Source: Thermogemmata fonticola
Lineage (GTDB): Bacteria > Planctomycetota > Planctomycetia > Gemmatales > Gemmataceae
Direction of reading: 5' to 3'
Length of the DNA stretch: 64,000 bases
Assembly: GCF_013694095.1 (NCBI RefSeq)
Contig: NZ_JACEFB010000008.1
Span: 1 to 64,000, forward strand
Part shown: positions 55,518 through 61,389 of the stretch, one piece after another
How positions within the stretch are numbered: the first letter of the stretch is position 1
Layout: every line of letters begins with the position of its first letter
The notes under the pieces: model-generated
Told to the model about the DNA's origin: nothing
Seen by the model: the letters and a program-made list of their open reading frames with translations, nothing else
Database searches by the model: none
Position numbers and translations under genes: made by a program

Positions 55518-58500
55518 TCAGTCCCGACTTCGAGGCGGCCAGAGGATTCGGCCAGGTGTCGTGGTACGAATGCTGTAGAGAATCCCGCCGGCGGTGATGA
55601 ACAAGGTACGCCGGTCGTCGCCGCCAAAGGCGCAGTTCGTCACTTCGTCGGTGGGAACGGGTAGGAATGCCAGGAGTTGCCCCTCTGCTGGATCGATGAC
55701 ATAGATGCCGCCCGGAACATTGGTTGCAGGTTCGGCTGGGGGATGAGGCCGATTCAAACCGGCGGCGACATAGAGGCGGCCCTGCACATCCTGTTTGATC
55801 CCGTCAGGACCACGTCCTTGACCCCAGTCGTAAAGCAGTTTCTGGCTCTTCGGCTCCACCGTGCCGTCGGGCTTAAGGCGGAAGCGCCACAGTTTGCGTG
55901 CCCCGCCAACCGTATCGTTGTTGTTGTCGGCCACGAACAGATAGCGGTCATCCGCCGACACCAGCACGCCGTTGGCACGCTCGACCTCTCGGCCCAGAAC
56001 GCGATGGACGCTCCCATCCGGGTCAATGCGGTAAACTCCTTCGATGGTCCGTCCCTGCTCGTCCCGCTGTTGCATATCTGAGCGGTCGCCATAACGGGGA
56101 TCGGAAAAGTAGATCCGTCCACGGGAATCAATAGTGAGATCGTTGGGCTGATTGTACTTCTTGCCGTTGAAGCGATCGGTCAGGACGGTCCGTTTGCCCT
56201 GGCGGTCGATGCGCGAGACGGAGCGGAAGGCGGGTTCACAGCAGACAAGGGTGCCATCCCGGTCGAAGAGCAGGCCATTAGTGCCCGCTTTTTCCCTCCA
56301 GAGGCGTGACTGGCCATCCGGCGTCCACTGATAGATGCCTTTGGCGCCACTGGTAAGTACGCCCCATTGCGGGTCCCAAGCCGGTCCTTCGCCAGCGGTT
56401 CCCGGTGCACTCAGGACTTGCAATCTGGCCCCTGGCTCGAAGATGGGATGATTGGTAAACTCCTGGACCGTAGCTACTCCGAGGTCCACAAACAGTTTCT
56501 CCGGGGTAGTGAAGATGATGCGCCGCTGGACCTGCTTATCGCGTTGGGCCGCTTCCACGGTGCGGCGGTAGGCGGCTTGAACTTCGGCACTCCCCAGGGG
56601 TCGGCCTTGCGGATCTGTCCCCCCTGCGATGGCCAAGGGGGTGATCCGCGCGAGGGCTGCCAGGTGAGGCACATCGCCGCACATGCGGAACAAGCCCGGT
56701 ACGATCAGGCCAAGGCGGAAATTCTCGTAAGGGCGATCGGTCATCAGGGTGACAGGACTGTTGACAGCGGCGGCTCCGTACTCCACGCCATCCTGACTGA
56801 CGGCAGCAGCGGCCAGAGCCAGTAGCCCCGCTGGCCCCTCTCCCACGTAGAGAATGCTGCGTTCGGCGACCTCCCCCATGTCCCGCAGGACCCGTACCAG
56901 GGAGTGGATATCCCACAGCCATTGCTGGAAGAGCGGCCGGCCCAGCCATAGGCCCCACTGGGCGGCATTATGATCGACCGCCCGGCCTACGCGATTGCGT
57001 TCTGGCGCCAAGGGTCCGGTCGCGCGCAAATCCAGGGTCACCACGCGCAAACCGGAACGCTGGGCCAGGTGGTATAGCTGGCTCTGCCGGGCAGCCTGGG
57101 CGCCATCCATATGCAGGAGCATCACAATCACCTGGGACTTTCCGGATTCCAGCCGCGCTGTCAAGGTGATGCCAGGGGCAGGTTGCCACTGGACAGTGCG
57201 GCTCCCGTCGGCATGTTTCTCGACCTGAGGATGCAGCTTTCCGCCACAGGCTCGACTTTCCTCTTCAAGCCAACGCTGCAACCACCCCCGTGCCTCGTCC
57301 CACTTACCGGCTTGTAGCCGCTGATCGGCTGCCTCCACCGCTCGCCGAGCCTCCTGGAAGGCCAGTTTCGGGACCGTCACAAATTCCTTGGGCCGGGTGT
57401 CATTCGGATAGCAGCGGAGGTCTTCCGGTTTTTCGGGTGTGGCAGGCGGTTCAGGAATCGGACTGCCATCTCCTTCTCCTTTGAGGTGCAGGCACATAAA
57501 GCCGTACATCGCTTCCCGCATCGCTTTGCTATAACCGTGTCCTTCATCGAAAATCACATGCCGCAGGCGGTCCGCCTGGCCGTAAAGCTGGTACACGGGT
57601 GCGACGCGTGCCAGGGATTTTTTCGCCTCGCCGGGGGAGAATTGGATACTATCTTTGGCAGCATTGATGACCATGAGCGGTCGCGGTGCGATCAAGGCCA
57701 GCACAGCCCATTCTTCGGTCCAGCTTAAGGCTCCTGGCACCACTTCGCACATGCAGCAGGCGGTGTGAAGGTAAGCCTGGTAGTTTCCCACGGAGCAGAC
57801 CGGCACCGCACAGCGCAAGCGGGTGTCCCACGCCGCGGCATACATCGTTTGGTTTCCCCCGCCACTGGCTCCGGTGATGCCGATGCGGGATTTATCCACC
57901 TCCGGGCGAGTTTCCAGATAATCGACGGCGCGCATGTTCTCATACACCTGCAAACCGCAGAGGGTCAGGCCGGAGGGCAGAAGGGTCGCCGCCGTCATCT
58001 CGCCGTGGTATTCGCCCAGCGCCGTGCCGATGCCGCGTTCGCCAGCACCGAAGGCGTCCACACATAGCACCACAAAGCCCAACTTGGCAGCACCGATACA
58101 CCGCATCTGAACCGTGGGCTCCTGCTTGGCCAGCCGCCAATGTCCGTGGACCATCAGGATCGCCGGTGCAGGTTTCTTCCGGGCGGCGTCGGGAATGTAC
58201 AGGTTGGCGGTCATCCGCACGCCGGGGCGAGTTTGGAAGCTGATCTTTTCCACGGTGTAACCTTCCCGCCGGAGCGGCTCGCCGTGCTGCTGCGGTTCCA
58301 GGGGACAAGGCGGCGTCACAAAACAGGCGGCCCCACCCCACGCCTCGTAGAGCCGCCGGCGTATCTCGGCCGCTTGCTTCTCCCATTCCGCACGGGTTGT
58401 AGGGACCCGATCCTGGCTCCGTTTCTCTGCCGCCTCGCGCAGGACAAAGGCCTGATACTGCTTGTTACTGGCTCCTGGAGCGCCCACTGCTGCCGTCCCA

Positions 58501-58646
58501 GGGCTTTTCGGTTGTTCCTGTCCAGAAGGTACTGGCTGCTGCCAACCCAAGGCCATCCCGCCGATCCACGCCAGGCCGATGGCCAGCCACGCAGCGGGCA
58601 ATCGCTGGAATTGTTTCCGCATCCGCCGACTGTTGCCGTATCGCAT
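55518..58646 (-). CDS. acetyl-xylan-esterase-like / degenerate hydrolase / SMP-30 fusion
   Basis: A 1042-residue exported protein (signal about 13-35) with three domains. First (about 85-400) an alpha/beta hydrolase like acetyl-xylan or cephalosporin esterases: nucleophile GASGGG, Asp in NAAKDSIQ, His in DEGHGYSK, so probably active. Second (about 480-740) another alpha/beta-hydrolase-like domain whose elbow reads VGEGPAG, with Gly in place of Ser, so probably inactive. Third (about 750-1040) an SMP-30/gluconolactonase beta-propeller with GEGPAWDP, QPNDLTIDSRG and GPDGIKQD carrying the metal-binding Glu, Asn and Asp. It could act on sugar esters or lactones outside the cytoplasm. Each pair is known in planctomycetes; the triple fusion is less usual. 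Start ATG at 58646. Confidence 0.85.
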   Translation of the reverse strand: MRYGNSRRMRKQFQRLPAAWLAIGLAWIGGMALGWQQPVPSGQEQPKSPGTAAVGAPGASNKQYQAFVLREAAEKRSQDRVPTTRAEWEKQAAEIRRRLYEAWGGAACFVTPPCPLEPQQHGEPLRREGYTVEKISFQTRPGVRMTANLYIPDAARKKPAPAILMVHGHWRLAKQEPTVQMRCIGAAKLGFVVLCVDAFGAGERGIGTALGEYHGEMTAATLLPSGLTLCGLQVYENMRAVDYLETRPEVDKSRIGITGASGGGNQTMYAAAWDTRLRCAVPVCSVGNYQAYLHTACCMCEVVPGALSWTEEWAVLALIAPRPLMVINAAKDSIQFSPGEAKKSLARVAPVYQLYGQADRLRHVIFDEGHGYSKAMREAMYGFMCLHLKGEGDGSPIPEPPATPEKPEDLRCYPNDTRPKEFVTVPKLAFQEARRAVEAADQRLQAGKWDEARGWLQRWLEEESRACGGKLHPQVEKHADGSRTVQWQPAPGITLTARLESGKSQVIVMLLHMDGAQAARQSQLYHLAQRSGLRVVTLDLRATGPLAPERNRVGRAVDHNAAQWGLWLGRPLFQQWLWDIHSLVRVLRDMGEVAERSILYVGEGPAGLLALAAAAVSQDGVEYGAAAVNSPVTLMTDRPYENFRLGLIVPGLFRMCGDVPHLAALARITPLAIAGGTDPQGRPLGSAEVQAAYRRTVEAAQRDKQVQRRIIFTTPEKLFVDLGVATVQEFTNHPIFEPGARLQVLSAPGTAGEGPAWDPQWGVLTSGAKGIYQWTPDGQSRLWREKAGTNGLLFDRDGTLVCCEPAFRSVSRIDRQGKRTVLTDRFNGKKYNQPNDLTIDSRGRIYFSDPRYGDRSDMQQRDEQGRTIEGVYRIDPDGSVHRVLGREVERANGVLVSADDRYLFVADNNNDTVGGARKLWRFRLKPDGTVEPKSQKLLYDWGQGRGPDGIKQDVQGRLYVAAGLNRPHPPAEPATNVPGGIYVIDPAEGQLLAFLPVPTDEVTNCAFGGDDRRTLFITAGGILYSIRTTTPGRILWPPRSRD

Positions 58647-58844: not shown

Positions 58845-60047
58845 CTATTTCAAGGTGTAGCGCAAATGGAGACGTTGGCCGTTGCGCAGGATATTCAGGG
58901 TGATCGTATCCCCCACGAGGTAATTGCGTCGCACGTGGGCCAGCAACAGCTCTCCGCCTCCCTGGAAGGTTTGGCCGTCGATGCCGATGAGAATATCGCC
59001 TCCCCGCAGCCCGATCCGTTCGAGACTTTCATGCACCCGCTGCTGTTGTCGCAGAGCGGCTTGATTGGCGGGTAGTCCCAAGGCTCTCTTTTCCTCCGGC
59101 GTCAGATCATCGCCGACCACGGGGAGCGAGGGAAGGATGTCTAGCAGCGAGGGGCGCCACGTGATGTTGGTTTTCCGCCAGCCGGGGGGCAGTTTGAGCG
59201 TCGCGGAGAACTGCCGCTCGCCTCGCTTCCAGATCACCGGGATGCTTCCCTGCTTCGGGGCTTTGTGCAGGGCATAGGAGGCATCGGCGAAGGAGGCAAC
59301 GGAATAACCGTTGAGCTGCACGAGGCGATCCCCCGCTTGCAAGCCGGCCTCGGCTGCCGGCGAGCGAGGTTGTACCGCCTGGACCAAATCGCCTTGGTCC
59401 TTGTGCAACACGATCCCGATATTCTCCGGCAAGGGATAGGACCAAATGCTGTCCCGGTCCCACGTGCCGGCGGCCTGTTCCGCAGCGCGGCGGAACTCGT
59501 TGACATTATGGCAGTGGATGCAGCCGCGATGGCGGCGGGCGGCGGGATAGTCCTCGGGCCGCACGGGAGGACCGCTCAGCCGCACAGCGGGGGGCGGCTG
59601 CTGGTGCTTCTCCAGCGCCCGTTCCAGGGCATAGCGCAAGCCCGCCAGGGACAAGCGCCCCTCACTATCGGAGGCGTCACGCCCCCCATAGCGGCCATAG
59701 ATCGTCTCATCCGCGTTGAGGAAAAAGGCGTACCAGGTCACATCATAGTCGAACTCGAAGCGCCGCAGGTCCATCCCGGCAATCTTGATCAGACGCACGC
59801 GAATGAACCGCTCCGCCACATCCCGAATCTCTTTCGGCAGACGCACCACCTGTGCGTCGAACTCCGCGCAGTCCAGTCACGGCTCGCAACGGAACACCAG
59901 GAAGATCGGCTTGCCGCTCCGGCGGGCTTCGGCCCGGGCCGCCTCGTAATCCGAAAACCAGCCGTACCGGGCTGGGTCCAGCTTCTGCACATTGGACGCT
60001 CCGCTTGAAGCTAACACGCCGATCCACAGCCAGCTCATCGCCATCAT
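58845..60047 (-). CDS. candidate selenoprotein: thioredoxin-like UxxC, CxxCH heme motif, two PDZ domains
   Basis: Without recoding, two fragments lie in the same frame, 60047-59877 and 59849-58845, separated by a single TGA at 59879-59877. Read through as Sec, they give a 400-residue exported protein. Signal peptide (MMAMSWLWIGVLASSGAS), then a thioredoxin-like segment GKPIFLVFRCEP-U-LDCAEFDAQ: Sec57 and Cys60 occupy the CxxC of thioredoxin, with Cys54 before them. A C176IHC179H180 c-type heme motif follows, then PDZ domains (about 215-270 and 335-400). The domain structure continues without a break across the TGA. A 7-bp hairpin lies 18 nt after it. The alternative is a TGC-to-TGA nonsense mutation. 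GTG at 60095 is another start. Selenocysteine genes are not in this window. Confidence 0.72.
59840..59858 (-). promoter_or_regulatory. SECIS-like hairpin downstream of the in-frame TGA
   Basis: On the minus strand GACGCAC-AGGTG-GTGCGTC forms a perfect 7-bp stem with a 5-nt loop containing GGU. It starts 18 nt after the TGA (59879-59877), within the distance known for bacterial SECIS elements, and the loop resembles that of E. coli fdhF. Chance occurrence in GC-rich DNA cannot be excluded. Confidence 0.55.
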
Positions 60048-60158: not shown

Positions 60159-60833
60159 TTACTTCCTCTCGCCCGTGCGCAGGACCTGGAAGCGGACGAT
60201 CGCGGGGCCATGACCCGTGGCCGCCCATTCCAGATGGACCTGGGAGCCGACCGGCGCTGCCCGGACTGCTTGCAGCACTTCCGGGATCGGCCCCTGCACT
60301 TTGGGGTCGAACTGGACGAAGTAGGAGCGAGCCTTTTCCTCGCCGGGCGCCTGGACTTCCAGGACGACATTCTTGCCCTGCTCCTTCTTGGAACGGAGCA
60401 CTCCCGTGACCGTCCCGGAGCGTTGCAGCTCGCTGACGCCGTGCTCCTTCGACTTGTCCTTGGGTTGCTCCCCGGCTTTCTTGAGCAGCTCCAGTTTCAC
60501 GACCCTCGGACGCTCCTCGAATTCCCATTCCAGGCGCACCCGGCTTCCCACCGGTGTCGCCCGAATCTGGGCCACCATGGCCTTGTCCGGCCCCCCGCCC
60601 TGAGCCGGTGCACCGCCACGCCAGTGGGGAACATACCGCCGGGCCTTCTCCTCCCCGTCCGCCTTGACCTCGATCCAATTCTCGCCCTTCGCCGTGACCA
60701 CACCCACAACGGTCCCTTTCCGCTGTCCCTCTTTCGGCTCCTTGGGTTCCTGCACCGCAGCGGCGGTCGCAGCGACGCTCAGCCATCCGAGCAGCAGACC
60801 CAAACCGACCATCGGCATTGTCGTACCTCGCAT
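60159..60833 (-). CDS. exported protein with two copies of a domain
   Basis: A 224-residue protein with a signal peptide (MPMVGLGLLLGWLSVAATAA). The mature part is an internal duplication: the first copy (about 38-118) runs KGTVVGVVTAKGENWIEV, GEEKARRYVPHW, ATPVGSRVRLEWEFEERPRV; the second (about 138-222) runs SGTVTGVLRSKKEQGKNV, GEEKARSYFVQF, AAPVGSQVHLEWAATGHGPA. I do not know the family. Upstream in-frame start at 60905 exists, but ATG at 60833 follows AAGGAGAAG and gives the signal peptide. It lies 111 bp upstream of the candidate selenoprotein on the same strand, so the two may be cotranscribed. Confidence 0.75.
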   Translation of the reverse strand: MRGTTMPMVGLGLLLGWLSVAATAAAVQEPKEPKEGQRKGTVVGVVTAKGENWIEVKADGEEKARRYVPHWRGGAPAQGGGPDKAMVAQIRATPVGSRVRLEWEFEERPRVVKLELLKKAGEQPKDKSKEHGVSELQRSGTVTGVLRSKKEQGKNVVLEVQAPGEEKARSYFVQFDPKVQGPIPEVLQAVRAAPVGSQVHLEWAATGHGPAIVRFQVLRTGERK

Positions 60834-61389
60834 GGCAACTTCTCCTTGGGGATCCCTCCGCCCACCGGTCATGACCGGCACGACGGAAAACTTTTTCGCC
60901 CTCATTGCTGGAAACCCCGCTTGTTACGGCAGAGTTCTGGCTCTTTACCCTGTTGTTACACAGGCATCCCTTGCCCGGCCATTCCCCCGCCCCTTTCTTT
61001 TGTCTTTTTTGTCCACAGCGGCAGGCGGAGGCAGTCCTTCGCGTTTCCTGGCTCACACGGCCCGTCTCAGGAACCTGTCCAGCCCCCGAACCGTTCGCCT
61101 TGGCCGTCCCCTTCACTGCTGCCCTCATGACCCACCTCCTTCTGGAAATTGGAAATCCTGGGAGTTGTCACCCGAACCTTTCGTCGGGGGGTTTTGACCT
61201 CTGGGAAACCCCGCCCGTGGGCGGTTTCGCCGGTCCGCTCCACTGCGCGACCTCGGCTTCCCGCCTTTACTGAACATATGCACCATAAATTTCCAGAAGT
61301 CAAATCGGATGCGGAAAAATTTTTCCCTTTTTTTCTCTCCCGCCGCCGGAAATGCTTATCTATAAATATGTTCCGTTGACATGGGAAAG
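60834..61389. other. intergenic region with a 12-bp direct repeat
   Basis: About 555 bp, no convincing gene; a long open minus-strand frame spanning it is a GC-driven shadow. AAGTCAAATCGG occurs at 61297-61308 and again at 61387-61398 (the second overlaps the end of the next gene). Read on the minus strand both contain TTGACT, possible -35 boxes, with A/T-rich DNA after them. Confidence 0.45.

Follow-up and report, generated by a model that had tools for sequence, protein, structure and literature searches.

A predicted thioredoxin-fold/PDZ selenoprotein in Thermogemmata fonticola and the distribution of Sec and Cys at its active site

The gene, its in-frame TGA, and its family

The window analyzed here is a stretch of 64,000 nucleotides from Thermogemmata fonticola. 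On its minus strand, which an earlier sequence-only reading of this DNA had not specified, lies a 400-residue frame interrupted only by the TGA at 59879-59877, which corresponds to residue 57 (context FRCEPULDC when the TGA is translated as a residue), in agreement with the claim of that reading that one TGA interrupts an otherwise continuous 400-codon gene. The features recognized within this gene are as follows.

60047..58845, minus: Trx7/PDZ selenoprotein gene (predicted), 400 codons, ATG start at 60047 and TAG stop, open with the TGA read through
59991..60047, minus: probable N-terminal hydrophobic export signal, residues 1-19, a hydrophobic stretch judged by eye from the translation, where model confidence is low
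59685..59960, minus: thioredoxin-fold domain, about residues 30-121 (Pfam Thioredoxin_7 at residues 30-86; model; structural matches with Z up to 13.7)
59886..59888, minus: C54 codon; all relatives have Cys or Sec here
59877..59879, minus: UGA codon, predicted Sec residue 57, with a TGA or Cys codon at 110/110 loci
59868..59870, minus: C60 codon, retained as Cys by most relatives
59840..59858, minus: 7-bp SECIS-like hairpin with an AGGUG loop, spanning nt 18-36 past the UGA (fold, and stem conserved in Sec-type relatives only)
59508..59522, minus: residues 176-180, a CIHCH motif that may bind c-type heme (no change at C176, C179, or H180 among 52 aligned sequences)
59190..59426, minus: PDZ domain 1, about residues 208-286 (Pfam PDZ_2 and PDZ; model)
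58854..59096, minus: PDZ domain 2, about residues 318-398 (second Pfam PDZ stretch; model secondary structure)

The window is G+C rich, and 18 other long frames interrupted by one TGA occur in it under the same length rule. Thus, a TGA-broken frame is by itself weak evidence, and the case for selenocysteine (Sec) has to rest on homology and on the decoding machinery. In a comparison with the relative L058, residues 20-56 gave difference rates of 0.03/0.11/0.59 at codon positions 1/2/3, and residues 75-400 gave 0.19/0.10/0.61. This constraint both before and after residue 57 confirms that the protein is not decayed on either side of the TGA, as had been proposed; the residues on both sides are translated and under purifying selection.

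Profile searches revealed that the protein belongs to NCBIfam NF041199, "Trx7/PDZ domain-containing (seleno)protein" (454 bits with a cutoff of 300; residues 29-398 against profile positions 2-389 of 390), and that C54 and U57 occupy the Cys and Sec positions of the CxxU site of this family. A 2026 inventory lists the NF041199 family in its Table 1 as CxxU with one Sec (MCX6587993.1), citing a 2008 GOS marine survey (PMC13188914). The prediction of a CxxU selenoprotein family, labeled "putative secreted serine protease MucD," goes back to 2008 (PMC2398784), and Thioredoxin_7 also occurs in an entry listed elsewhere as a CxxU "PDZ domain-containing protein" (PMC9312934). Because the inventory cites the 2008 study, and given the latter entry, we equate NF041199 with the family that carried the MucD name. 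The suggestion that the gene encodes a new type of redox selenoprotein is therefore not upheld, as the protein matches NF041199 and the selenoprotein prediction dates from 2008. Rather, the gene is a well-supported new member of an already catalogued selenoprotein family, with which it shares the full-length match, the CxxU site, and the combination of thioredoxin and PDZ domains, and from which it differs in nothing essential. With it, a family known only through prediction gains a planctomycete member that is strongly supported and backed by comparative evidence on the hairpin.

Evidence for the probable reading of UGA-57 as selenocysteine

Named relatives were fetched with a pattern located elsewhere in the protein, so that the residues at the site itself were not selected for. 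Positions 54/57 are C/C in 62, C/U in 27, and U/U in 21 of the 110 loci counted, some of which represent one genome present in two collections; U at 54 followed by C at 57 occurs in none of the 110, nor does any of them have a residue other than Cys or Sec at either position. The alignment of homologues, which the sequence-only reading had named as a check, thus has a TGA or Cys codon at residue 57 in all 110 loci. The clade of the window gene itself (L058-L065, about 50 to 78% identity) is C/U throughout, and the TGA or Cys codon extends to relatives beyond this group. C54, a further Cys three residues before the TGA that had gone unmentioned, makes the site CxxUxxC, and conservation is stronger at position 54 than at C60, which is lost in 5 of the 110 loci, 4 of them of the Sec type. 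Mapping the C/U and U/U labels onto the tree requires nine changes for each, of which eight are forced by well-supported branches, and the Cys-only copies fall mostly within two large clades. One copy, L071, is titled Alphaproteobacteria and groups tightly with Verrucomicrobiota, and it is probably a misbinned contig. Another, L085, carries Cys at positions 54 and 57, and its one TGA lies within PDZ domain 1 (match residue 228), where the surrounding sequence suggests a frameshift and not Sec.

A search of the T. fonticola genome (4.8 Mb, 97% complete) for selA, selB, selC, and selD found all four, namely, tRNA-Sec (74.9 bits, anticodon TCA, or UCA in the RNA), SelB (396 bits), SelD (291 bits), and SelA (533 bits). 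More broadly, SelA is above the cutoff in 46 of 50 surveyed genomes with TGA-type copies versus 9 of the 26 whose copies are all of the Cys type (P = 2.6e-7, uncorrected for kinship). No VPGUxxT selenoprotein was found above the cutoff elsewhere in the same genome.

The 7-bp hairpin with GGU in its loop that had been noticed downstream of the TGA is present at 59858-59840; its RNA reads GACGCAC-AGGUG-GUGCGUC, with a G in the apical loop. Its folding energy is unremarkable (z of -0.49) and uninformative as evidence, and we used a synonymous-shuffle test of the named stem instead, so that the significance of the hairpin derives from its conservation across relatives. Of eight fixed stem pairs, 6.1 are formed in the C/U relatives versus 4.3 in synonymous shuffles and 6.7 versus 4.6 in the U/U relatives, whereas the Cys-type relatives form 1.5 versus 1.7; i.e., they lack the stem. 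Relatedness inflates this statistic, but the contrast between Sec-type and Cys-type sequences is nonetheless large. Among Sec-type members, one rung of the stem varies as C-G, A-U, or G-C. In a subset of C/U relatives (L027, L033, L037, L042, and L126), the downstream sequence departs from the common stem, and these may use a shifted or different SECIS.

These observations can be set against the view that the TGA stems from a sequencing error or from a recent TGC-to-TGA nonsense mutation in a Cys-type gene that is truncated or decaying. TGC and TGA are indeed one base apart, and the other TGA-broken frames of the window indicate that such interruptions arise by chance. However, eight separate close relatives have a TGA at the same codon, which makes a misread TGC very unlikely, and the purifying pattern before and after the TGA, the complete Sec machinery in the genome, and a hairpin conserved only alongside the TGA are likewise at odds with an error or decay. 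On the strength of the shared TGA and the two-sided constraint, we reject a pseudogene or read error as extremely improbable and take UGA-57 to be read as Sec with a probability of about 0.97.

Domain architecture, the CxxCH motif, and a two-Sec form

The structure model of the full-length protein (pLDDT 92.9) and the Pfam matches agree with the earlier proposal of a thioredoxin-type domain and two PDZ domains, and the N-terminal hydrophobic stretch in the translation suggests that the protein is likely exported. The N-terminal domain finds its best structural matches in 3f9u, Thermus thioredoxin, TXNDC12, AGR2, and DsbH. In a profile alignment to the solved structure 3fk8, the WCxxC pair is matched by U57 and C60, with C54 as an additional residue, so that both "UxxC" and "CxxU" are apt descriptions of the site. 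Hence, the placement of the TGA at the first Cys of a thioredoxin motif holds with respect to the WCxxC alignment, but in published work the family is classed as CxxU, and the better conservation of position 54 than of C60 also speaks against that description. The fold, and the correspondence of U57 and C60 to WCxxC, are shared with proteins of the Thioredoxin_7/TXNDC12/AGR2/DsbH type, from which the window protein is distinguished by the extra C54, Sec at 57, the added CxxCH and PDZ segments, and a cis-Pro region without Pro: residues 104-105 are T and W, and just 2 of 52 relatives have Pro at 104. Given this lack of Pro in 50 of the 52, ordinary thioredoxin activity should not be assumed.

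The PDZ pair is related to those of DegP, DegQ, and RseP and thereby resembles that of HtrA/DegP-type proteases, including MucD. Unlike in those proteases, the N-terminal half of the window protein has a thioredoxin fold, and HtrA matches are confined to the PDZ part; no trypsin-like protease domain was found, Thioredoxin_7 and PDZ being the only Pfam families above the cutoff.

Between the thioredoxin and PDZ parts lies the CxxCH motif, which the sequence-only reading had taken for a c-type heme motif. The motif is there, with both of its cysteines and its His invariant in the 52 aligned sequences, but no cytochrome c family was matched in Pfam. A further residue, H148, is His in 49 of the 52. 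The genome of the window encodes a fused protein of the ResB/CcsA type, at least 895 residues long (L138, G000 C1:809010-809213), which is likely a heme c attachment enzyme. Because of this candidate synthase, heme attachment to the CxxCH is possible, and the segment could, on the basis of its motif, bind covalent heme.

About 40% of the Sec-type relatives have a second Sec at position 54, giving a UxxUxxC form in place of the Cys found at this position in the window gene. They are mainly from Planctomycetota and Poribacteria and include L026, L032, L035, L039, L049, L053, L086, L092, L093, L094, L101, L103, L110, L121, and L133, among others. Because the same codon recurs in many separate genomes, an error at these second TGAs is unlikely. 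As the inventory (PMC13188914) gives the family one Sec, UxxUxxC looks like an undescribed two-Sec variant; together with the invariant CxxCH of the relatives, a two-Sec form that is common and yet missing from the inventory is what the relatives add to the picture of this family. We regard as doubtful, though worth stating, the joint proposal that a Sec thioredoxin center and a covalent c-type heme occur in one PDZ-guided exported protein and that, in the UxxUxxC form, both Secs, which might form a diselenide center, are directed by one hairpin whose loop lies about 26 nt past the second UGA and about 35 nt past the first.

Proposed function and gene neighborhood

On balance, we favor a role for the protein as an exported Trx7/PDZ thiol/selenol oxidoreductase that acts on clients found via its PDZ domains, and we consider this redox function, taken as a whole, somewhat more probable than not. 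The family, the machinery, and the hairpin were established computationally; building on them, SelB with Sec-tRNA(Sec) would decode UGA-57 as Sec, aided by the downstream hairpin. The U57 selenolate might then attack a disulfide or other oxidized group on an extracytoplasmic client, with C54 or C60 resolving the selenenylsulfide. The two PDZ domains could hold the client in the fashion of HtrA proteases without a protease domain, and the CxxCH segment would probably serve as a c-type heme carrier or a second thiol relay.

Sec confers a large gain in peroxide chemistry, which could instead point to a selenoperoxidase of the cell envelope, with U57 reducing peroxides, C54 or C60 resolving, and protein clients being secondary. 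A substrate unlike that of thioredoxin would also fit the missing cis-Pro; nevertheless, the profile searches matched Thioredoxin_7 and no peroxidase family, and the two PDZ domains suggest protein clients, so we view a selenoperoxidase as rather unlikely. The absent cis-Pro, the CxxCH, and the nearly invariant H148 and H178 could also be reconciled with apocytochrome or metal handling, in which the CxxUxxC and CxxCH would bind and pass on metal or heme in the manner of a maturation chaperone, with no disulfide turnover. The nearest structural match, the C-terminal domain of 3f9u, is titled cytochrome c biogenesis-related, but this match is to a common fold and no heme- or metal-pathway gene is a conserved neighbor, making this an improbable explanation. 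No paper giving NF041199 a function was found in the literature searched, and PMC12013277 makes no mention of it; a biochemical test of any kind would thus be informative.

Across the family relatives examined, no conserved gene neighbors hinting at a substrate were found. Gene neighborhood was accordingly set aside as a clue to function, since it offered only an uncharacterized repeat protein upstream, in the nearest clade alone. This gene (60159-60905, minus), directly upstream on the same strand, encodes a 248-residue repeat-bearing protein without a Pfam family; related genes lie upstream in L058-L063, and the protein may be a functional partner in that clade. Also on the minus strand, a gene at 55518-58646 encodes a protein of 1042 residues that combines an acetyl xylan esterase/dienelactone hydrolase-like part with an SMP-30 (gluconolactonase-like) domain and is syntenic in L058 with 73% identity.
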